From: a virus
Length of the DNA stretch: 64,000 nt
Direction: 5' to 3' (one strand)
Virus record (IMG/VR): IMGVR_UViG_3300025168_009799
Span: 1-64,000 of that record
Shown: positions 5,982 through 51,528 of the stretch, in pieces
Position numbering within the stretch: the first letter of the stretch is position 1
Layout of the letters: each line of letters opens with the position of its first letter
Position numbers and translations under genes: made by a program
The notes under the pieces: generated by a model
Databases searched by the model: none
Told to the model about the DNA's origin: nothing
The model's input: only the letters and a program-made list of their open reading frames with translations

Positions 5982-6015
5982 TTTAGTATTTATATAAAAA
6001 ACTTTTATATTTTTG
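5982..6015 (+). promoter_or_regulatory. Second rightward Bacteroidota-type promoter
   Basis: A second -7 box TATTTTTG lies at 6008-6015, with a weaker TTTTAG at 5982-5986 in the -33 position. It is 23 nt before the groES start codon, giving a short A-rich leader. It would drive the rightward operon independently of the RNA upstream. The -33 match is imperfect, so confidence is moderate. Confidence 0.5.
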
Positions 6016-6038
6016 TCAAGAAATTAAATAATTAAAAT

Positions 6039-6317
6039 ATGAAAGTGACTAAACCTAACTTTAAACCCTTAAGGGATTGGATCTTATTACCAGATCCAAG
6101 AAAAACAAAAACAGAAAGCGGGATAATATTATCTGAAGAAGCTGCTGATAAAATGACAACTAATATACTAGAGATTCTGGATGTAGGTCCGGATGTTAAA
6201 TCTGTTAAAGCTGGAGATACTGTAATGGTAGATCCTAGCGTAGCAGGTAAAATTATAGTAGTAGATGATGTATCATTTGTATTAGTAAGTGAATTCCATG
6301 TATTAGGAGTACTGTAA
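6039..6317 (+). CDS. groES: GroES-type co-chaperonin (Cpn10)
   Basis: A 92-residue protein with Cpn10 features in order: KPLRDWILLPDP at about 8-19 (the first barrel strand and PxxDxxL/I-like start), a mobile-loop segment with SGIILSEEA at about 27-35, VLDVG-like ILDVGPDVKSVKAGDTVMVDP at about 46-67, and a terminal SEFHVLGVL. Length fits bacterial GroES (about 95). It would cap host GroEL to fold phage proteins, as T4 gp31 and other phage co-chaperonins do for capsid protein. It is the first gene of the rightward operon, right after a promoter. The hydrophobic mobile-loop IIL is retained, so GroEL binding is plausible. Confidence 0.88.
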   Translation: MKVTKPNFKPLRDWILLPDPRKTKTESGIILSEEAADKMTTNILEILDVGPDVKSVKAGDTVMVDPSVAGKIIVVDDVSFVLVSEFHVLGVL

Positions 6318-6661
6318 TGAAAGCTGAAGATCGTAGAAGAATAACTATTAAGGCTGATACTACCTTAAAGTATATCCAAGTATGGAACGGGATATTCAAT
6401 TTAACTAATAAAGAATTAGAGGTATTAGCATTATTTATAGATATCCATAAGACAGTGGATATTAAGAGTATATGCCATAATAAAATAAAACAAGTAGTTG
6501 CAGCTAAATTAGATATTAGAGATGCTAACACATTGAATAACTATATTAAGAAATTAAAAGATAAAGGCGCTTTAAGAAAAAATAAGAATCTTTATGTCTT
6601 AACACCTATTCTTAATCCAAATATTAAAAGAGTTGAGGTCAATATCAATAGCAACAAATAA
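6317..6661 (+). CDS. Winged-helix-like DNA-binding protein (putative)
   Basis: A 114-residue protein beginning in a TAATG overlap with groES, so it is translationally coupled. The middle reads as a helical HTH (FNLTNKELEVLALFIDIH, then LDIRDANTLNNYIKKLKDKG), with a recognition-type helix before a basic turn and strands (ALRKNKNLYVLTP) that would be the wing. Similar small winged-helix proteins occur near the start of the late block in crAss-like phages. It may regulate transcription or take part in packaging or replication initiation. DNA binding is inferred from the fold-like pattern; the specific role is unknown. Confidence 0.6.
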   Translation: MKAEDRRRITIKADTTLKYIQVWNGIFNLTNKELEVLALFIDIHKTVDIKSICHNKIKQVVAAKLDIRDANTLNNYIKKLKDKGALRKNKNLYVLTPILNPNIKRVEVNINSNK

Positions 6662-6806
6662 TATATTCATTGAGGAATGGTTATTACTAGAAGGAGAATA
6701 CGTAGTGATAGTTATAATAGGATATGATTATGAAGGAAACTGTATTAAATTAAAAATAGAACATGAGCCAATCAAAGAAAAAACCGTTAACCACTTTATT
6801 GAGTAA
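6633..6806 (+). CDS. Small acidic protein, overlapping gene (TTG start proposed)
   Basis: A 57-residue frame that fills the otherwise empty 6662-6762 gap. It reads IFIEEWLLLEGEYVVIVI, then a GYDYEGNCIKLKIEHEP region, and stops at 6804-6806. The amino-acid pattern (acidic, alternating strands, Trp and Tyr) looks coding. No ATG is available in frame; TTG 6633-6635 is the best start, after AAAAGAG. It overlaps the upstream gene by 29 nt and the downstream gene by 44 nt, which is large for this genome. Function unknown. Confidence 0.45.
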   Translation: MRSISIATNNIFIEEWLLLEGEYVVIVIIGYDYEGNCIKLKIEHEPIKEKTVNHFIE

Positions 6807-7029
6807 TTTTATTAAAGAAGGAACTAAGTATGTTCAGCATGGTATGCCGCAAGTATCACCTGAAGAGTATACAAAAAGATTAAAAATTTGTTATGAATGT
6901 GAACATTTACGAGAAGTGAGTACTTCTTGTGGATTATGTGGCTGTGGTATGGAGATGAAAGCTAAATGGGGAACATCTACGTGTCCAGATAATCCACCTA
7001 AATGGGAGGCTACGCATGGTAAAGGATAG
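6763..7029 (+). CDS. Zinc-ribbon-like small protein
   Basis: An 88-residue protein with a Cys pattern typical of a structural zinc site: CYECEH at about 45-50, then CGLCGCGM at about 58-65 and a final C near 75 (TSTCPDNPPKW). The N-terminal half is a basic amphipathic helix (LTTLLSNFIKEGTKYVQHGM) followed by SPEEYTKRLKIC. This arrangement (SPEEYxxRLxIC then CxxC) is common in Bacteroidota phage genomes just upstream of the terminase block. It probably binds zinc and may bind DNA or a partner protein; the exact role is not known. Confidence 0.65.
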   Translation: MSQSKKKPLTTLLSNFIKEGTKYVQHGMPQVSPEEYTKRLKICYECEHLREVSTSCGLCGCGMEMKAKWGTSTCPDNPPKWEATHGKG

Positions 7030-7246
7030 AGAAGAGATTATTTATTATCTATCTAATAAATATGAGGTACCAATATATTTAGTTAGAGAGATTGTTAATT
7101 ATCAATTTAAATTTGTGTCAAAGCAAATAAAAGAGGGAGATTATGATGCGATACGTTTACCATATTTTGGTAACTTTTCTGTAAATAAAAATAGAGTTAA
7201 ATATATAACAAAATTAAAAAATGAAAAAATTATTAAAGACCTTTAA
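7016..7246 (+). CDS. IHF/HU-family DNA-bending protein (crAss-like type)
   Basis: A 76-residue protein with the HU/IHF layout: two N-terminal helices (EEIIYYLSNKYEVPIYLVRE, then IVNYQFKFVSKQIKEGD) and the conserved turn-strand IRLPYFGNFSV at about 46-56 in place of the HU motif with GFGxF. The C-terminal part is short and basic (KNRVKYITKLKNEK), so the DNA arm is reduced. Short IHF-like proteins are a hallmark of crAss-like phages and lie near the terminase, where they may bend DNA for packaging or transcription. It overlaps the previous gene by 14 nt. Confidence 0.8.
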   Translation: MVKDREEIIYYLSNKYEVPIYLVREIVNYQFKFVSKQIKEGDYDAIRLPYFGNFSVNKNRVKYITKLKNEKIIKDL

Positions 7247-33148: not shown

Positions 33149-33841
33149 ATGATAAATTCTCATCTACCATATTACGCTCCATTTTTAGAAGGTTCTGATT
33201 TAGTGCTTTGGTTAAATTTAGATCCTGATTATAGAACTACAGCTACTACTGTAAACGATTGGAAGAATTATAAGAAAGTCTCTGATGTATTTTCTCAATC
33301 AAATGCTTCAAGACGTCCTACAGATAACGGTACACATATAACATTTGATGGAGGCGATAATTTAGCATGTAATGTAGATAGAGTTTTAGATGTTAGTGCT
33401 ACAGGATGGACTGTATGTTCGAGATACACAGAAACTGATTGGACATCAAATTCTACGCTAGCCTCTGATAACGATACTAATAACTCATTTATAAAAAATG
33501 TAGGTAATAGTATTTCAGTAAAAGCAACTGGTACTAGTGGAACACAAACAAAGGTTATAAATTTTGATGCTCCTACAAATTTAGTAGATAGTCAAATTTA
33601 TAATATAGCAGTAACATGTACTACTGCAGGACTGTTAACAGTTTATATAGACGGAGTAGCACAAGCAGATACTGCTACTTTTGGTGATGATACTTATGAT
33701 ATAACAATGTCAGAAGTAGGAGGAAAAAACGGAAATAGCTGGATGATGGTAGGAGATATACAAGAAATAATAGTGTATCATCGGCCTTTGTCTCAAGCAA
33801 ATATTACAGATCTTAACACATATTTAAATAATAAATTTTAA
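33149..33841 (+). CDS. LamG/concanavalin-like fold protein
   Basis: A 230-residue protein with the features of a laminin-G-like jelly roll: a start PFLEGSDLVLWLNLDP, HITFDGGDNL, a central set of strands with WTVCSRYTETDW, and the closing GDIQEIIVYHRPLSQANITD, the hallmark end of such domains in bacterial surface and phage proteins. These domains usually bind carbohydrate or protein ligands, so it is probably a receptor-binding accessory of the tail. It starts 2 nt after the previous fibre stop. The ligand is not predictable from sequence. Confidence 0.72.
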   Translation: MINSHLPYYAPFLEGSDLVLWLNLDPDYRTTATTVNDWKNYKKVSDVFSQSNASRRPTDNGTHITFDGGDNLACNVDRVLDVSATGWTVCSRYTETDWTSNSTLASDNDTNNSFIKNVGNSISVKATGTSGTQTKVINFDAPTNLVDSQIYNIAVTCTTAGLLTVYIDGVAQADTATFGDDTYDITMSEVGGKNGNSWMMVGDIQEIIVYHRPLSQANITDLNTYLNNKF

Positions 33842-34304: not shown

Positions 34305-35390
34305 ATGAAGAATTTCTTAATATTTTTATTACTAGTATGTTCAACTAGTTTATATTCTCAAGATGTAGATTTTAAAGAGCTTATTAAAAAGCAATTGAAA
34401 TTCTCTACGGTTTATGGGGCTGTAAATGGAGGAACTTCTGTATCAGATGTTAATAGATTTTCTGTTTTAGATGGGCTACAAACATCTATTATAGAGACTC
34501 CTTATGATTACTCTGTTACTTTTGGATTAAGAAAAATAGCAAGATTTGGTTATGAGAATAAAGCACAAACATTTTATGATGGTACAGAGTCTAATTATAG
34601 TGATGCTGCTACAGTAGGAAAAGTAAGAGGATTTGAATATTTATTTGAGATAGATTACGCTAGACAACAAGGGGTAGATTATATAGATCAGCATCATTTT
34701 ATTAGATATAGCTCTGATGATGATTGTGAGGGTCCTTATTGTATAGATCATTTTGCAGCTAAAGCAGAGTATTTAAAAGACGGATTTGCTGATATAGAAT
34801 ATTTTGAATTATCAGAAAGGTATAGAATAAAAAGAAATAGAGATTTAGCAATTAGTATAGGTGTAACACATAGATTAGCAGAACCATATGGGTACAACCC
34901 TTTAGATGAATGGATGTTAAGTAATGGTAATTTACACTATACATATTTAGCTATAGAAGAAGGATATACAATAGATGTACGTGCAAATGAATATAAAGAC
35001 CCTGATGGGAATGTAGTTGCTAATAGCGCAGAAGTATGGAAGGAAGTAGTAGTTCCACAAATACTATCTGACTATACTGAAAAGAAAAGAAATGAGTTAA
35101 AAAATATTATACAACATTCTCTTGTGATAGGATTTGATTATTATAAATATAATAAAAAAACATGGTTACATGCTTGGGGTAATTTAATGCCTTGGCATTA
35201 TAATGACGGTAACGAATTTTCATACCATAATTATATAACTGACGACCAATGGTATGATTATTCTGCTGGACTTATATATGGTATAAAGCATAGTAAAAAC
35301 TTAGGGTATTTTATTGAAGGAAAATATAATAAGTATTGGAATAGAGAATGGTATGATTTTAAATTAGGAATTAATTACGTAATATTTTAA
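34305..35390 (+). CDS. Predicted exported outer-membrane beta-barrel protein
   Basis: A 361-residue protein with a clear Bacteroidota-type signal peptide (MKNFLIFLLLVCSTSLYSQ, cut after SQ). The rest contains amphipathic, aromatic-rich strands (RYRIKRNRDLAISIGVTHRL, SAGLIYGIKHSKNLGYF) and ends with a strand closing in Phe (LGINYVIF), the usual outer-membrane barrel signature. Such a product would go through Sec and the BAM complex to the host outer membrane. It is not a normal virion part. It is encoded between fibre and lysis genes, so a late surface-modifying or superinfection-blocking role is a reasonable inference. Barrel assignment is from pattern only. Confidence 0.65.
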   Translation: MKNFLIFLLLVCSTSLYSQDVDFKELIKKQLKFSTVYGAVNGGTSVSDVNRFSVLDGLQTSIIETPYDYSVTFGLRKIARFGYENKAQTFYDGTESNYSDAATVGKVRGFEYLFEIDYARQQGVDYIDQHHFIRYSSDDDCEGPYCIDHFAAKAEYLKDGFADIEYFELSERYRIKRNRDLAISIGVTHRLAEPYGYNPLDEWMLSNGNLHYTYLAIEEGYTIDVRANEYKDPDGNVVANSAEVWKEVVVPQILSDYTEKKRNELKNIIQHSLVIGFDYYKYNKKTWLHAWGNLMPWHYNDGNEFSYHNYITDDQWYDYSAGLIYGIKHSKNLGYFIEGKYNKYWNREWYDFKLGINYVIF

Positions 35391-35401
35391 AAATAAAAAA
35401 A

Positions 35402-35506
35402 ATGAAAAAGAAAATTTGTAAATGGGTTCAAGCTATAACATTTGGATTAATATGTTTTGGTTGGTGTGTATGTGAGTGTGGTAAAGATAATTGTTGTCAA
35501 GCGTAA
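35402..35506 (+). CDS. 34-residue Cys-rich membrane peptide
   Basis: A short frame starting MKKKICKWVQAITFGLICFG and ending with seven further residues of Cys-rich tail (CVCECG, DNCCQA). A basic N-terminus plus a hydrophobic segment at about 8-24 suggests a membrane insertion or signal segment; the lipobox match is poor. The stop overlaps the next ATG as TAATG and it fills the gap after the barrel gene, which supports it being real. It could be a tiny regulator of lysis or an envelope peptide. Confidence 0.5.
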   Translation: MKKKICKWVQAITFGLICFGWCVCECGKDNCCQA

Positions 35507-35748
35507 TGAAAACTAGTGTGAAAGACGAAATAATATTAATGGAACATAGAATGAATTCAATGGAAGATAAAATGGATAAAATAGATTCTAAGTTGGATAT
35601 GCTAACTGAAAAATTATTAGACCCAGATTATGGTGTAACAGCTAGAGTAAACAGAAATACTACTCATCGTAAATTAATGAGTAAGGCTTTATGGGTTATC
35701 TATGCTGTAGTAATAGGTGTAGTTATTAAATTGGTATGGAATGGCTAA
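35506..35748 (+). CDS. Small membrane protein with coiled coil (XhlA/holin-like)
   Basis: An 80-residue protein started at ATG 35506 (MKTSVKDEIILMEHRMNSM), coupled to the preceding stop; an in-frame TTG at 35491 is unlikely. A charged coiled coil (EDKMDKIDSKLDMLTEKLL) is followed by GVTARVNRNTTHRKLM and a single C-terminal membrane helix (ALWVIYAVVIGVVIKLVW). This order matches XhlA-like hemolysin/holin-associated proteins of phages. It may assist lysis or anchor partners at the inner membrane. It overlaps the next gene by 8 nt. Confidence 0.6.
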   Translation: MKTSVKDEIILMEHRMNSMEDKMDKIDSKLDMLTEKLLDPDYGVTARVNRNTTHRKLMSKALWVIYAVVIGVVIKLVWNG

Positions 35749-36052
35749 AGAATTAAACGAAAATACAACATTTAATATGAGTGTGAAAACAATGCTAGCT
35801 TTAGGGTTTGGCATTGCTACTTTAATAGCTGGGTGGTATTCATTAATGGCTGAGATACAAGAAGCTAAAGAAACTCCAACTCCAATTACTATTGAAGAAA
35901 TAATTAAGGAGATACCAGAGGCTGAAATAACTAGAATGGAGTTTGATATGAAAGATCAGATGATTAGACAAACTATTATGACAACTCAATCTGATGTCGA
36001 AGAAATGAAAAAAACTCTTGAAAAGATAGAGGATAAACTTTATAATAGATGA
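35741..36052 (+). CDS. Small membrane protein with periplasmic coiled coil
   Basis: A 103-residue protein with one membrane helix at about 15-32 (TMLALGFGIATLIAGWYSLM), then an acidic segment with ITIEEIIKEIPEAEIT and a charged coiled coil ending KKTLEKIEDKLYNR. By the positive-inside pattern the coiled part could be outside the inner membrane, like a spanin-type or holin partner protein, but no lipoprotein partner with a clear lipobox was found. It overlaps neighbours on both sides (8 nt and 4 nt), so it is tightly coupled. Function unknown. Confidence 0.55.
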   Translation: MAKELNENTTFNMSVKTMLALGFGIATLIAGWYSLMAEIQEAKETPTPITIEEIIKEIPEAEITRMEFDMKDQMIRQTIMTTQSDVEEMKKTLEKIEDKLYNR

Positions 36053-36408
36053 AAGACAAGATTACATGGAAGATGTTTACTCTGTATATGTTAATTATTG
36101 CTTTCATGTTAGTATGTAGCGGAGCGTTTGCTCAAGTTCAAGTAGCATATTTTAATGCTAGTTGGAATAACGCTAATGATGTTAAATGGGTAAATAAGTT
36201 AACTGATGTAAAAACTTTTAACTTTATAGATATAAGTAACGATACAGAACTACAGAAGAAGCATAAAATAGCAGTTGTACCTACTATTATAGTATTTAAA
36301 GATAATGTAGAAGTTGTTAGGTTTCAAGCTGATTTAAGTTTTAAAATGGTAGCAACAAGAGAAGAAGTACAAGAAGAAATAGATAACCAATTAATGAGTG
36401 ATTTTTAA
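36049..36408 (+). CDS. Exported thioredoxin-fold protein lacking catalytic cysteines
   Basis: A 119-residue protein with an N-terminal hydrophobic export segment (about 10-29, ending SGAFAQ). The mature part follows thioredoxin order: VAYFNASWNNAN strand and active-site turn, then NFIDISNDTELQKKHKI, then VPTIIVFKDNVEVVRF with the cis-Pro at P78. The WCGPC active site aligns with W39-N40-N41-A42-N43, so both Cys are replaced by Asn; redox activity is therefore not expected. It may act as a binding or scaffold module in the periplasm. Families of redox-dead thioredoxins exist, but a phage-encoded exported one is unusual. Confidence 0.7.
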   Translation: MKDKITWKMFTLYMLIIAFMLVCSGAFAQVQVAYFNASWNNANDVKWVNKLTDVKTFNFIDISNDTELQKKHKIAVVPTIIVFKDNVEVVRFQADLSFKMVATREEVQEEIDNQLMSDF

Positions 36409-38769
36409 ATGAGAAAAATATTATTATTATTATTATTACCTATAATAACTTTTGCACAAAAAGAAGTTGTTATACATGTAACAACAGATAATTATCCATC
36501 TGAAACAAGGTGGGTATTACATGCTGATAGTTTTCAAGGTCCTATACTAGATGAAGTAGCTTATGGATATTATGATTCTTCTAGTACTACTTATACGGAT
36601 ACAGTTTATATCCCAGATAGTATAACTAATATTTCTTGGGTTATATACGATCAATATGGCGATGGTATGCCAGGAGGGAGTTATTATGTTTCTATATGTG
36701 GAGATACTATAGTTAATTATCCTGTACCTACATTTACAAATGGGTTAATACACAATAGAGTAGTTCCTCAATGTATGCCTAATCCACCACCGTGTGTACC
36801 AGCTAAGGTTATAATTAACTTAGATCAATATCAAAGTGAGACATCTTGGGACATAAAAGACACAAATGGGATAATTTATGCAGAATCAGTTACATACGCA
36901 GGAAATCCTGACTATGCTACTATTATAATACCTGTATGTGTACCTAAAGGAGACTTAATTTTTACTATATATGATAGCTATGGTGATGGGTTAAATGGTT
37001 CTTTATGGCAAGGGCAAGACGGTTCTTATTATTTAACACAATGTAATGACACATTAATATATGGTACAGATCCAGCATTTGGTTCTGATACAACGCATGT
37101 ATTTGCATCTGATTCATGCCCTCCTATATTAGGATGTACTGATCCAGCTTATACAGAGTTTAATCCATTTGCTAATTTAGATGATGGGTCTTGTTCTATA
37201 TTAAAGATATTTGGATGTATTGATATATCAATGTACAATTTTGATCCTACTGCTAATACAATGGATATGATTGATAGTTGTGATTACACATTAGTATTAC
37301 ACGATTTAATGGGTAATGGATGGGTTGGTTCTTCTTTAAAGATATATGCTGATGACACAACAGAATATTACAATGCTGGTGGATTTGATGATATTTACAG
37401 CGTTAGTTTAAGGGCTCCGGAATTAATAAGTATACAATTTTTTATTAGTTCTCAAGCAGCTTTAACAACAATAGAATGTGGTTTTACTTTAATTAATCCA
37501 GAAGGTGATACATTAATAAGTGTTCTACCTCCATTCATACAACCTTTATTTGTTTATAATGTAATAACAGATTGTGGTAATACTTGTATCGAAAAGATAT
37601 ATGGGTGTACAATCTTAACAGCAGTAAATTATGATCCACTTGCAAATACAGACGATGTAAGTTGTTATTATGATCCTGGATGTACTAGCCCTGCATTTTT
37701 AGAATATTATACTCAAGGGTTTGTAGCTGATTACGACGATGGTTCCTGTGCTACACAAGCTGTTTGGGGTTGTATTGACAGTACAGCATTTAACTACGAC
37801 CCATTAGCTAATATAAGTAATGGAGGATGTGTACCTGTTATTATAGGGTGCATGCAACCTTTAGCATTTAATTATAATCCTAATGCTAATACTTCTGGGC
37901 CTTGTACTCCTATTATATATGGATGTATGAGCCAATTAGCTATTAATTACGACTCATTAGCTAATACAGATGATGGAAGTTGTATAGGAATAGTGTATGG
38001 ATGTACAGATACTTTAGCTTTTAATTGGGACCCTAATGCTAATGTAGATGATAGCTCATGTGTGCCTGTTATATATGGGTGTATAAATCCAACTATGTTT
38101 AACTATTGTGATAGTTGTAATACTAACGATGGAAGTTGTATAGAAATATTATATGGGTGCACTGATAGTACAATGTTTAATTATAATTCTTTAGCTAATG
38201 TTGATAACAGTTCTTGCATACCTTATATTTACGGTTGTACTGATCCTAGCATGCTTAACTATGAACCAACTGCTAATACAGAAGACTTTAATTGTATTCC
38301 TTTTGTTTATGGGTGTATGGATAATACTGCTATTAACTATGATACGTTAGCTAATACTGACAATGGTTCTTGTATTGAAGCGATTGCAGGATGTAGAGAT
38401 CCAAATGCGTACAATTATAATCCTCTAGCAAATATATTAGCACATGACTCTTTAGGGTGTTTATATGCCGCGGATTGGTGCATAAATGGATCTGGTAACC
38501 CTTTCTTTTTAAACGACGAGTGTTATGCTTGGGTAATATCAGTAGATGATTATTGTTGTGAAAATGAATGGGATAGTATCTGTCAATTAACTTATAATCA
38601 TTGTGATGATAATTGGACAGGGTCTATACCTTCTAGATTAATGGTTACAAGTAAACGTACTTTAATAACTATTGTAGATGTTTTAGGTAGAGAAATAAAA
38701 GAAGAAACTAATCAGCTTCTATTCTATATATATGATGATGGAAGTGTAGATAAAATAATAAAAGAATGA
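36409..38769 (+). CDS. Exported repeat protein with T9SS-type C-terminal signal
   Basis: A 786-residue protein starting with a signal peptide (MRKILLLLLLPIITFAQ). Two N-terminal domains of about 100 residues each carry IYDQYGDGMPGG and IYDSYGDGLNGS. From about 241 to 680 there are 13 repeats of GC-x-D-x-x-(A/M)-x-N-(Y/F)-x-P-x-A-N-x-D-(D/N)-x-SC (for example GCTDTLAFNWDPNANVDDSSC). The end, RTLITIVDVLGREIKEETNQ followed by LLFYIYDDGSVDKIIKE, matches the type A sorting domain of the type IX secretion system, established for Bacteroidota surface proteins. It would go through Sec, then T9SS to the outer surface. It is unlike virion proteins and is probably host-derived or made to change the host surface. 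Confidence 0.8.
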   Translation: MRKILLLLLLPIITFAQKEVVIHVTTDNYPSETRWVLHADSFQGPILDEVAYGYYDSSSTTYTDTVYIPDSITNISWVIYDQYGDGMPGGSYYVSICGDTIVNYPVPTFTNGLIHNRVVPQCMPNPPPCVPAKVIINLDQYQSETSWDIKDTNGIIYAESVTYAGNPDYATIIIPVCVPKGDLIFTIYDSYGDGLNGSLWQGQDGSYYLTQCNDTLIYGTDPAFGSDTTHVFASDSCPPILGCTDPAYTEFNPFANLDDGSCSILKIFGCIDISMYNFDPTANTMDMIDSCDYTLVLHDLMGNGWVGSSLKIYADDTTEYYNAGGFDDIYSVSLRAPELISIQFFISSQAALTTIECGFTLINPEGDTLISVLPPFIQPLFVYNVITDCGNTCIEKIYGCTILTAVNYDPLANTDDVSCYYDPGCTSPAFLEYYTQGFVADYDDGSCATQAVWGCIDSTAFNYDPLANISNGGCVPVIIGCMQPLAFNYNPNANTSGPCTPIIYGCMSQLAINYDSLANTDDGSCIGIVYGCTDTLAFNWDPNANVDDSSCVPVIYGCINPTMFNYCDSCNTNDGSCIEILYGCTDSTMFNYNSLANVDNSSCIPYIYGCTDPSMLNYEPTANTEDFNCIPFVYGCMDNTAINYDTLANTDNGSCIEAIAGCRDPNAYNYNPLANILAHDSLGCLYAADWCINGSGNPFFLNDECYAWVISVDDYCCENEWDSICQLTYNHCDDNWTGSIPSRLMVTSKRTLITIVDVLGREIKEETNQLLFYIYDDGSVDKIIKE

Positions 38770-39377
38770 AATATTATAGAGAACAGATTCAAAAAGTAAT
38801 GTTAGAGAAAGGATACAAATATTTTACAAATGATAACTATGATGTAAATATTATAGGTATTAGGAATTCTGATACCCACGGTAAAGTTACAAATGCATTT
38901 GATGATATAATAACTATAACATTTAAAGATGAAGAGGGTAAATGGCATTATAATGAATATGAGTGTACTACAGATCCTGGTACCTCTTATATGGATAATC
39001 CAATATTAGAAAATACAGGATGTGCAATATTAAAACCGGGGCAATATAGAGGATCTCATAAATTAAGATTGCATGCAGGTAAATATTTAGCATTAGGTCA
39101 AAAGAAAAATGTTACAGTGTATAGAGATAATGATAGAGACGATAAGTATGATCTAAATGAATCTAATACTGACACAGGATTATTTGGCATAAACATACAC
39201 AGAGCAACTGGCAGATCTGGCAAGACCTCTACTTATGTAAACAAGTGGAGTGCAGGGTGTCAAGTAATAGCAAGTAATGATGATTGGCATGAATTCTTAG
39301 ATATATGCCAAACAGCTAGAGAAGTGTGGGGAAATAGTTTCTCTTATACATTATTAGAAAGTAAAGACATTATATAA
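38766..39377 (+). CDS. Endolysin with L,D-transpeptidase-like signature
   Basis: A 203-residue protein. A start MKYYREQIQKVMLEKGYKYF is followed by NIIGIRNSDTHGKVTNAFDD. Later segments include TTDPGTSYMDNPILENTGCA and KPGQYRG, and the closing INIHRATG (H145) with WSAGCQV (C165) match the His and Ser-x-Gly-Cys pattern of YkuD/L,D-transpeptidase folds. This type is common as a lysis-region protein in Bacteroidota phages and should act on peptidoglycan. It has no signal peptide, so release would need the holin encoded next. Hydrolase rather than transpeptidase activity is inferred from the role. Confidence 0.68.
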   Translation: MKYYREQIQKVMLEKGYKYFTNDNYDVNIIGIRNSDTHGKVTNAFDDIITITFKDEEGKWHYNEYECTTDPGTSYMDNPILENTGCAILKPGQYRGSHKLRLHAGKYLALGQKKNVTVYRDNDRDDKYDLNESNTDTGLFGINIHRATGRSGKTSTYVNKWSAGCQVIASNDDWHEFLDICQTAREVWGNSFSYTLLESKDII

Positions 39378-39392
39378 ATTAAAAATAAAATT

Positions 39393-39785
39393 ATGAGTAT
39401 ATTAACAAAAATATTTAGTGGTGGTGCAACAGAACTAGTAAAAGGTGTAGGCGGTGTAATAGATAATTTACATACATCTAAAGAAGAGAAGCTTGCTGCT
39501 ACACAAAAAATACAAGAGCTTGTAGCTAGCTATGAGACTCAGATGGAAAAAGAAATCTCATCAAGGTGGAGCGCAGACATGAAGTCTGACTCTTGGTTGA
39601 GTAAGAATGTTAGACCTTTAGTTTTAGTATTCTTAGTTGTATGTACAGTATTAATGATATTTATTGATGCTGGATCTATTAAATTTGTAGTAGAGCCTAA
39701 ATGGACTGACCTATTACAATTAGTATTAATAACTGTGATCGGTGCCTATTTTGGAGGTAGATCGCTAGAGAAGACAAAAAAATAA
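39393..39785 (+). CDS. Holin (3-TM, GTA_holin_3TM type)
   Basis: A 130-residue protein: an amphipathic N-terminal region (FSGGATELVKGVGGVIDNL), a charged helix with SRWSADMKSDSWLSKNVRP at about 57-75, then hydrophobic helices LVLVFLVVCTVLMIFID and LLQLVLITVIGAYFGG before a basic tail (RSLEKTKK). The SDSWLSKNVRPL turn and the GAYFGGRS end are characteristic of the 3TM holin family found in gene transfer agents and phages. It lies right after the endolysin. It should form membrane lesions that release the endolysin. Confidence 0.85.
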   Translation: MSILTKIFSGGATELVKGVGGVIDNLHTSKEEKLAATQKIQELVASYETQMEKEISSRWSADMKSDSWLSKNVRPLVLVFLVVCTVLMIFIDAGSIKFVVEPKWTDLLQLVLITVIGAYFGGRSLEKTKK

Positions 39786-48903: not shown

Positions 48904-51528
48904 ATGAATACTAAAGCATTACTAAAAATACTAGAGAAAAGACTTAAAGAGAAAGAAGTTACTAAACTTCCTGGAGGAGAAATGAAAACGATTCCTGGTT
49001 CAGACGCTGTAGAGTTTAAAGGACAATCACATGAGCAGGGGGGTATTAAATTAGACAAACTTACTGAAGTAGAAGGAGGAGAAACTATGGATAAAGTAGT
49101 TTTAAAAGATGGTGTTCCTAATGACTATTTCTTTTCAAAACATTTAAAACATAACGGTAAGAGCTTTGCTCAATTACATAAAGAGATTTTAAAGTTTGGA
49201 GGTGCAAAATCACAGCAAAAGATTCAAAATTTAGCTAGGCTTCAAGAGCAGAGAGCGGGCCGAGATGTGAATATAGTTTTAGGTGATAAAGTTATGTATG
49301 GTAATGATGCAGGAAAGTATATGAGTAATTATGTAGCACGAAAAGGAGGAGTAAGAAAATACCATATGGGAGGTAAAAAAGAACATGGGGTGAATACACC
49401 TATGCCTCTACTTCAACACACGCATACAAGTTATAATAAGAATCAGACAGACACAGAATGGGAAGAAGGGTCATCTCTTTATAATGGAGAATCAGCAACA
49501 GAATCTATTATTCTTTCTAGACCGGTATCTATAGATGATTTACAAAAGTTTTCAGAGGCAGAACTAAATGAATTTATAGAAAAGGAAGGTAAGTGGGTTC
49601 CAAAAAGATTTGAAGCAAAGTACCCAGAACTTACTCAAAAAATATTAGACGGAAAAAGAAAAGCTCGACAGGATGCAATAGACTATAATTTTAATCAGGA
49701 TATGCAAAGAACTCAAGCAATGAGTGTAGCGCAAACAGATAATACTACAGTGGTTAATAATCAACTTTATCCGGATGGTCAGGGTGGTTATACTAGCATG
49801 AATGACGACTATGAGGAGCCGTCTTATAATCATATAGAAATTCCTCATCAAAATGTAGATCTAGATTACAATCCACTGCAAAATGCTACTCTTGTACTAA
49901 AGAATGCTCAAATTAGAAATAATAATATTAATAATAAGAATAATACTACAAAAAAGAAAAATTCTGGAAGTGGAAGTGGGAGCGGAAGTGGAAGTGGAAG
50001 TGGAAGTAATAATAACTCTACTAAGAAACAGGATTATAAATATACAGGATTTGAGAATAGAGCTGATGGTAATAGATTTAGAAACTGGTTAAATTTAAAT
50101 TATCCAGAATTTGCTTCAGAAATTGATTTAGATAAAAAAGGAAGTCATACTAATAAGTATATTAAAAAGGGTTTAGAAAAATATGGAGATGAGTATACTG
50201 CATATTTATCTAACGAAGATAATTATGGAGGAGATACTTTTGATGTAGATGAAAATAGAGACGGAGATGATCTTAAGGTTAATCAGTTTGGATATACTCA
50301 AGACGAGTGGTATAACTTACCTATGGCAGAAAAAAATGCATACTTCGCTGGAATAGATAATGAAAGGGTTGCAGAAGATGAAAACTATATAGAAGATGCT
50401 AATAAAGCTTACCACTTAGATAAGTTTGATCAACAATCTAATTTATCTAATGATTGGGTAGACGTTGTAATGAAAGACGGTAGAAAAGTTAGAGTCCCTC
50501 GAGATAAGAAAGATGCTTATGTAGGTAATGATAATTATGATGAGGCTGCTTCACATTGGACTGATAACTTATCACAAAGAGAATCGGTCACTGGATTAGG
50601 TGAAGGGAGTTACACAGATGACGAAGGAAACTTGTGGGAGAAAGACAAAGCAGGTAGATGGAGAGTGAAGTATTCAAAACCAGGTACTGAGTTTGGAGAC
50701 GATGAAAAAGTTTTAGATGATGACTGGACAACACTGGAAGCTAGAAATTATCCAGGAGAAATGAATTTAACTCCTATGGGAGATCAAACTGATGGTACAA
50801 ATGATAAAAAGGGTAAAAATAGTATGTGGCAAAAAACTAAAAACTTTGTTGGTAATACAGATATAAAAGGTTTATTAGTTGATTTAGCACAATTCTTACC
50901 AGTACATATGGCAATGAAAGATAAGCCAGGGCATATGAAACAATATGCTCCAATGCCTGAAGTAAGACTAAATAGAGTTAAATTTAATGAAGCTAGATCT
51001 AAGAACTCTGCAGATTTTAATGCATTAAATTTAGGTATAGATAATGCAGGACATGATCCTAGTTCTTTTGCTAAAAAGATGGCCTTATATGGTAAATCAC
51101 AACAAGCTGATTTAGCTATTGATGGGACAGAAGCTAGAGAGAATGCAAAAATAGACGCAGCTGAAGCAGGAACAAACGTCGGTATTAGATCAGAAAATCT
51201 TAAAAATAGATTATATGTAGACGAGTTTAACTTGGCTTCTGACTCTGCTACATTTGATAGAAAGTTAAATGCTATGAGCTCAGCAGTTCAGAATTTAGGA
51301 TTGCTAAGAGAAAGAGCGTTACAATATAAAGGACAAAAATTAATGGCGGATGCTGTTGGTAGAGACGGTATTAATACAAGACAAAACTTACGTGGAGACA
51401 TGTTAACTAAATATTCACATAGAACTATTAATGGTATGAAATTCTCTGAGATGAATGACGCTGATCAAAGTTCTTTTATTGCTAATGTAACTAACAATAA
51501 TCTGAATGTAATGGATTTGTTCGATTGA
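48904..51528 (+). CDS. Large internal virion (cargo-type) protein
   Basis: An 874-residue protein. The N-terminal domain carries LPGGEMKTIPGSDAVEFKGQ and SHEQGGIKLDKLTEVEGGET then NDYFFSKHLKHNGKSF, a recurrent domain of Bacteroidota phage virion proteins, and GGVRKYHMGG at about 150. A (Gly-Ser)n linker at about 355-370 separates it from a middle domain. The remainder is charged and mixed (FENRADGNRFRNWLNLNYP) with a helical C-terminal section (AAEAGTNVGIRSENLKNRLY). It is probably packed inside the head and ejected. No enzymatic motif was recognised. Confidence 0.6.
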   Translation: MNTKALLKILEKRLKEKEVTKLPGGEMKTIPGSDAVEFKGQSHEQGGIKLDKLTEVEGGETMDKVVLKDGVPNDYFFSKHLKHNGKSFAQLHKEILKFGGAKSQQKIQNLARLQEQRAGRDVNIVLGDKVMYGNDAGKYMSNYVARKGGVRKYHMGGKKEHGVNTPMPLLQHTHTSYNKNQTDTEWEEGSSLYNGESATESIILSRPVSIDDLQKFSEAELNEFIEKEGKWVPKRFEAKYPELTQKILDGKRKARQDAIDYNFNQDMQRTQAMSVAQTDNTTVVNNQLYPDGQGGYTSMNDDYEEPSYNHIEIPHQNVDLDYNPLQNATLVLKNAQIRNNNINNKNNTTKKKNSGSGSGSGSGSGSGSNNNSTKKQDYKYTGFENRADGNRFRNWLNLNYPEFASEIDLDKKGSHTNKYIKKGLEKYGDEYTAYLSNEDNYGGDTFDVDENRDGDDLKVNQFGYTQDEWYNLPMAEKNAYFAGIDNERVAEDENYIEDANKAYHLDKFDQQSNLSNDWVDVVMKDGRKVRVPRDKKDAYVGNDNYDEAASHWTDNLSQRESVTGLGEGSYTDDEGNLWEKDKAGRWRVKYSKPGTEFGDDEKVLDDDWTTLEARNYPGEMNLTPMGDQTDGTNDKKGKNSMWQKTKNFVGNTDIKGLLVDLAQFLPVHMAMKDKPGHMKQYAPMPEVRLNRVKFNEARSKNSADFNALNLGIDNAGHDPSSFAKKMALYGKSQQADLAIDGTEARENAKIDAAEAGTNVGIRSENLKNRLYVDEFNLASDSATFDRKLNAMSSAVQNLGLLRERALQYKGQKLMADAVGRDGINTRQNLRGDMLTKYSHRTINGMKFSEMNDADQSSFIANVTNNNLNVMDLFD
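49965..50008 (+). repeat. GGAAGT-type hexamer microsatellite coding a Gly-Ser linker
   Basis: A run of about seven imperfect GGAAGT/GGGAGC units inside the 874-residue virion protein gene encodes alternating Gly-Ser. As units are multiples of three, copy-number change would lengthen or shorten the linker without breaking the frame. It looks like an inter-domain spacer flanked by Asn/Lys-rich sequence (NNINNKNNTTKKKNSG). Confidence 0.85.

Follow-up and report, generated by a model that had tools for sequence, protein, structure and literature searches.

Can a phage send one of its own proteins through the type IX secretion system (T9SS) of its host? The question is raised by an open reading frame at positions 36409 to 38769 of a viral sequence, which a sequence-only reading took to encode a T9SS substrate with a signal peptide, 13 Cys-rich repeats, and a C-terminus that closely follows the type A sorting domain. 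We refer to the whole stretch of DNA analyzed, 64 kb of an 89,749-base IMG/VR virus record, as the window. We conclude that the product of the gene is very probably T9SS cargo, made by a crAss-like phage that infects T9SS-bearing Flavobacteriales. The proposal of a phage-encoded substrate of the host system is supported by comparison, namely by a model of the tail, by the host context, and by the exchange of tails among relatives.

The virus and the candidate cargo gene

The terminase and major capsid protein of the window phage have their best matches in crAss-like phages, at approximately 40% and 32% identity, respectively, and its portal matches phrog_6547. Matches to CrAss_Ring_1 and CrAss_Ring_2, as well as a weak match to the muzzle protein, agree with a crAss-like assignment. 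Together, the terminase, major capsid protein, portal, and ring proteins mark the phage as a Crassvirales-like member. The best explanation is that it is a crAss-like virus whose hosts are T9SS-bearing Flavobacteriales, a placement that names the host group rather than the host itself. Most of the viral contigs used in the comparison are fragments. Elsewhere in this virus, an 874-aa ORF with a low-complexity Serglycin match lies at 48904-51528, and a block of very large ORFs past the muzzle gene includes one of 2796 aa (G000, 59534-67924).

The features of the gene and its surroundings are as follows.

34305..35390, + strand: cassette gene 1, 361 aa, signal peptide and predicted 12-strand beta-barrel of the outer membrane (AlphaFold; PDB folds)
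35491..35748, + strand: small transmembrane (TM) protein, accessory cassette member (13 of the 80 best loci)
35741..36052, + strand: cassette gene 2, 103 aa, with a single TM segment at the N-terminus and a tail resembling a coiled coil (found close to gene 1 in 76 of the 80 best loci)
36049..36408, + strand: cassette gene 3, signal peptide and thioredoxin-like domain without CxxC (present in 74 of the 80 best loci)
36409..38769, + strand: putative T9SS cargo gene, 786 aa, ATG at 36409, stop ending at 38769 (108 distinct 3'-complete relatives in viral contigs)
36409..36456, + strand: signal peptide, residues 1-16 (sequence; relatives)
36457..37566, + strand: three predicted N-terminal beta-sandwich domains, residues 17-386 (AlphaFold)
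37132..38460, + strand: 13 Cys repeats GC..(x)..NY..AN.DDGSC, residues 242-684 (translation)
38458..38622, + strand: conserved C-terminal Cys domain (NPFFLNDECYAWVISVDDYCCENEWDSICQLTYNHC) (alignment of relatives)
38641..38766, + strand: putative short T9SS sorting tail with motif D (IVDVLGRE) and motif E (LFYIYDDGSVDKIIKE) (bacterial-only tail model; alignments)
38766..39377, + strand: endolysin-like protein (phrog_33083 endolysin, E 2.3e-13)
39393..39785, + strand: holin (phrog_3427 holin, E 3.3e-31; PF11351; 21 of the 80 best loci)

The cargo ORF is intact and encodes 786 aa. Its N-terminus, MRKILLLLLLPIITFAQ, is that of a typical flavobacterial signal peptide, and all 95 of the 5'-complete relatives have a signal-peptide-like start as called by a pattern rule rather than by SignalP, which bears out this part of the earlier reading. 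By a simple hydropathy rule, such a start is found in only three of the 79 phage ORFs, namely those for the barrel, the thioredoxin-like protein, and the cargo.

The remainder of the protein consists of a head, a repeat region, and a conserved C-terminal portion. AlphaFold modeled residues 17-234 and 290-386 with pLDDT values mostly of 70-93, and Foldseek returned C2 and galectin folds; because these matches are weak, we claim no binding partner. The head part is exchanged among relatives, which carry MAM, TDxYPxETxW, DTCMYGYA, or FDFYAP types, with the MAM domain PF00629 found in three of them (L283, L302, and L315). The predicted number of 13 Cys-rich repeats was recovered when GC...C units were counted by eye; a simple regular expression catches 11 of these and also the beginning of the C-terminal domain. 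The cargo contains 43 Cys residues in all. Relatives carry 9-20 repeats according to a loose pattern, and the repeats are modeled poorly in the full-length AlphaFold prediction (pLDDT <50). Large ORFs upstream in four other loci (L259:1-2820, L262:1-2808, L282:1-2613, and L275:3-4115), which are probably structural, match the cargo, partly through similar Cys repeats.

The short tail and the type A sorting domain

The C-terminal words quoted in the sequence-only reading are present in the protein. Nevertheless, a search of Pfam and NCBIfam with the whole cargo and with its last 66 residues gave no match, including to the type A models PF18962 and TIGR04183, and PF18962 had zero matches over the whole virus record. 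Among the NCBIfam models without a match to the window tail are those for the type C (NF033708) and type B (TIGR04131) domains. A poor type A profile score for the last ~60 residues had been named in advance as a result that would refute the proposal, and this is literally what was obtained, with zero matches to PF18962 and TIGR04183. The test is insensitive, because bacterial tails of the same kind are also missed by these models: PF18962 catches 0 of 40 bacterial short tails, and TIGR04183 catches three of 40 with E values of 0.047 or worse.

A model built from 39 bacterial tail sequences, with the window row excluded, gave a different result from the type A models, matching residues 746-783 of the cargo at 63.1 bits (E 6.6e-20). 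Among the other phage ORFs, the lowest E value was 0.24, and none of 7,900 shuffled phage proteins scored above 8.6 bits. The resemblance of the C-terminal tail is beyond chance. By alignment, the short tail corresponds to type A motif D (DVLGRE) and motif E (FYIYDDGSVDKIIKE), including a conserved Lys near the C-terminus. D..G[RKQ] is found in all 100 viral short tails, PNP is found in none of the 100, and motifs A-C are lacking. In a profile-profile comparison (hhalign), the alignment of the short and canonical tails was limited to the D..G(R) strand (P 0.0012, probability 19%). The claim that the C-terminus closely follows type A thus needs correction: neither type A model matches the tail, a single strand aligned, and the correspondence is to motifs D and E with their Lys. 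Because the profile match is weak, the assignment of homology rests on tail exchange, genomic context, and motifs.

The short tail and the type A domain (PF18962, TIGR04183) share their C-terminal position, the D..G(R) strand, and the near-C-terminal Lys; both are paired with a Sec signal peptide and are exchangeable in orthologs. The short tail is ~40 aa in length compared to ~72-75 aa for type A, lacks PNP and motifs A-C, and falls below the detection limit of both type A models. Tails other than type A have a precedent on T9SS substrates, namely the type C domain of ChiA (NF033708) and the type B domain (TIGR04131). In addition, the last 22 residues of the HBP35 domain, comprising motifs D and E, are reported to be enough for the export of GFP, and the lysines of motif E to be required (reviewed in PMC10202324). 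An almost invariant Lys near the C-terminus stands out in translocon structures (PMC10994853). The use in nature of a tag of ~40 aa in place of the full type A domain would bear on what the translocon needs for recognition.

Short tails are also found in bacterial genomes. A degenerate DNA pattern for YIY(D/N)DG(T/S)..(E/D)K, for which we estimate ~0.2 chance matches in 257 billion bases, matched at least 120 stretches. Among the matches listed, nearly all belong to records with Flavobacteriales, Cryomorphaceae, Crocinitomicaceae, or Bacteroidetes in the title, the stop codon lies 14-18 residues past the motif start in ~122 of 126, and most of the bacterial proteins have signal peptides. The proteins ending in short tails, again among the matches listed and with names assigned by eye, are unrelated to each other, and include esterases, chitinase-like enzymes, M43 proteases, and cyclophilin-like proteins. 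Where these bacteria are labeled marine, the label comes from the titles of bacterial genome records and not from the habitats of the viral samples. Twelve small Flavobacteriales genomes (G001-G012) have 18-51 short tails each, together with 29-62 canonical type A tails each. In these draft genomes, PorV and a PorU-type C25 peptidase were each found in 12 of 12, and SprA in nine of 12. As expected for a mark of T9SS substrates, the short tail is a C-terminal domain common to unrelated secreted proteins of T9SS bacteria. Of 198 genomes sampled from the class, only 10 have it. SprA was detected in all 29 genomes tested, so its presence separates nothing within the class sample. Because PF18962 and TIGR04183 miss the short tag, T9SS secretome counts for these 12 genomes would fall short by 18-51 proteins each.

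Orthologs that differ in tail type bear on what the tail does. M43 protease orthologs with ~50-65% identity to the query were compared across 119 genomes of the class. Four have the short tail (three of them from the pattern scan), and the other 3'-complete orthologs have canonical type A tails (23/23). In the phage cargo family, the 108 distinct 3'-complete members comprise 100 with the short tail, eight with the canonical tail, and none without a tail. Six of the eight canonical phage tails were scanned, and these scored 31-46 bits with TIGR04183 (cut-off 23) and 34-46 bits with PF18962 (cut-off 27). Both types join the cargo at the same junction, after the CYAWVI.VD.YCCENEWD domain. When mapped onto a tree built from the pre-tail region, tail type switches seven times, with at least six switches forced by well-supported branches, although recombination in the repeat region could have inflated these counts. 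Judged by this comparison of orthologs in bacteria and phage, the short and canonical tails are equivalent.

An alternative interpretation is that the tail marks some other export or anchoring route of these Flavobacteriales. This would be in keeping with the blindness of the models to the short tail and with the confinement of its type A similarity to part of the domain. We find this interpretation unlikely, given that the tail is exchanged with canonical type A in both bacterial and phage orthologs, that it has motif D, motif E, and the invariant Lys, and that PorV and PorU are encoded in the same genomes. A second possibility is that the tail is a passive relic of a captured host gene, carrying an inactive tag; similar tails are common in hosts, and capture would bring one along. 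Universal retention of the tail, in 108 of 108 complete relatives despite wide divergence elsewhere, led us to reject this explanation as very unlikely. The replacement of one tail type by another at a single junction also argues against a relic, as does the distribution of the pre-tail Cys domain, which is absent from 51 of 52 host-family genomes and in the remaining one is found on a phage contig only.

The envelope cassette

The cargo gene is part of a cassette whose other members are predicted to encode envelope proteins. The AlphaFold model of the first product has 12 strands (pLDDT 71.6, pTM 0.65), and its top PDB matches, NanC, NalP, and FapF, are all outer-membrane barrels. On this basis, we predict with moderate confidence that 34305-35390 encodes an outer-membrane beta-barrel. 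It appears to be specific to phages, as it was not found in 51 other host-family genomes. For the TM protein encoded at 35741-36052, a spanin-like role was considered. The product of 36049-36408 matches TIGR01068 (E 0.0015, 18.7 bits compared to a cut-off of 96.8) and PF00085 (E 0.0043, also below cut-off), and CxxC is present in four and absent in 70 of 74 relatives. Lacking both the active site and a score above cut-off, it does not qualify as a thioredoxin; this thioredoxin-like protein may act on the Cys-rich cargo as a chaperone or adaptor. A small protein with a Laminin-G/ConA-like lectin domain (PF13385, E 1.1e-8) is encoded upstream of the cassette at 33149-33841.

Relatives of the barrel are encoded by 436 viral stretches in IMG/VR, and relatives of the C-terminal part of the cargo are found in 503. 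In 51 of the 80 best loci, the stretch retrieved includes a cargo with a tail, and many of the others are cut off at the stretch edge. Gene order varies to some extent, with the barrel gene located 3' of the cargo gene in several relatives. In L279, which is on the same contig as L004, the cassette has a copy of the barrel gene on either side (237-1367 and 6001-7077). The resemblance of the cargo to secreted host proteins could be taken to mean that a bacterial gene was joined to a chimeric viral contig by an assembly or binning artefact. Most of the best 80 loci share both the cassette and its gene order, and the terminase family of the window was found on 39 of 44 cassette contigs tested. 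We therefore rejected bacterial contamination, the probability of which we consider negligible.

The cassette may not be confined to one phage lineage. The window barrel is 83% identical to that of L016, compared to 53-62% for the virion and other genes of this pair. Furthermore, a 43 kb phage contig (L422-L423; G277:C32, 43,296 bases), binned in a host-family genome, contains the whole cassette, with a cargo that ends in a canonical type A tail. This contig encodes a phage DNA polymerase and helicase, and its other ORFs in the 40 kb read have no match to the window virus. It also bears a Nol-like carbamoyltransferase gene. The presence of the cassette on a contig without the crAss-like backbone of the window virus suggests that the cassette moves between phage lineages.

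The location of the cargo gene between tail and lysis genes would also fit a virion component, such as a tail fiber or decoration, whose signal peptide and sorting tail would be incidental or would aid in extracellular assembly. Consistent with this, the upstream large ORFs of L259, L262, and L282 match the cargo, in part via similar Cys repeats. To our knowledge, however, proteins of the virion are put together in the cytoplasm and carry no signal peptide, whereas the signal peptide and T9SS tail are conserved here without exception. The neighbors in the cassette are envelope proteins as well, and a role in the virion seems to us improbable.

Proposed role and comparison with known systems

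We favor a model in which the cargo is exported by the host T9SS and displayed during infection. An endolysin-like gene and a holin gene lie downstream, and expression is probably late, as inferred from the place of the gene beside tail and lysis genes. Late in infection, the cargo would be made with its Sec signal peptide and cross the inner membrane. The SprA/PorV translocon of the host would then recognize the tail through motifs D and E of type A and carry the cargo to the cell surface or outside. Acting with the phage-specific outer-membrane barrel, the small TM protein, and the periplasmic thioredoxin-like protein, the exported cargo may remodel the host envelope.

The purpose of such remodeling can be guessed at from the architecture of the cargo, in which head domains vary among relatives on a constant stalk and base. 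Our first guess, which is tentative, is that a displayed stalk with exchangeable heads blocks re-adsorption or superinfection by relatives. After exclusion, adhesion of infected cells or debris is our guess for the next most likely purpose. We see even support for and against a broader proposal, that hundreds of crAss-like and other Flavobacteriales phages carry a four-gene envelope module that installs a barrel and exploits T9SS to present a stalk with exchangeable heads on the surface of infected cells. Such a module would be a new kind of surface takeover; the minimal tag on which it would rely, composed of motifs D and E, is overlooked by current annotation of both phages and bacteria. The window phage would offer a concrete case in which T9SS, described elsewhere as an export machine of bacteria, is used by phages.

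A tblastn search with the cargo, barrel, and thioredoxin-like protein against 50,697 phage records gave no match, and a host-surface module that is widespread in this virus group has thus escaped description. We found no mention of the short tail or the cassette in the open-licence literature. Phage-encoded outer-membrane proteins that alter the host surface include Lom, Cor, and the T5 protein Llp. The window barrel is similar to these in kind, as a phage protein put in the host outer membrane; the comparison concerns the way they work rather than their sequences, and they are not known to make use of T9SS.

The closest precedents are phage proteins that themselves have T9SS sorting domains. 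Cryophage has T9SS type A cargo genes, whose products were proposed to use the host system (PMC7468147, 2020). As in the window phage, the proteins in question are phage encoded and carry T9SS sorting domains. The Cryophage cargo proteins are an endoglucanase, a GH39 enzyme, and a PA14 protein located in variable islands, and their type A domains were recognized by annotation; unlike the window phage, Cryophage is described in the relevant passages of that report without such a cassette. In crAss-like phages, BACON proteins with a T9SS sorting domain have been described, with one protein carrying both (PMC6949934, 2019). These resemble the window cargo in being crAss-like, in having a T9SS sorting domain, and in lying near structural genes. 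They contain BACON repeats rather than Cys repeats of the window type, and the passages on them do not pursue mechanism. As far as these two accounts go, phage-encoded T9SS cargo is already known (PMC7468147, PMC6949934), and it is the combination of a short tag with an envelope cassette that appears to be new.
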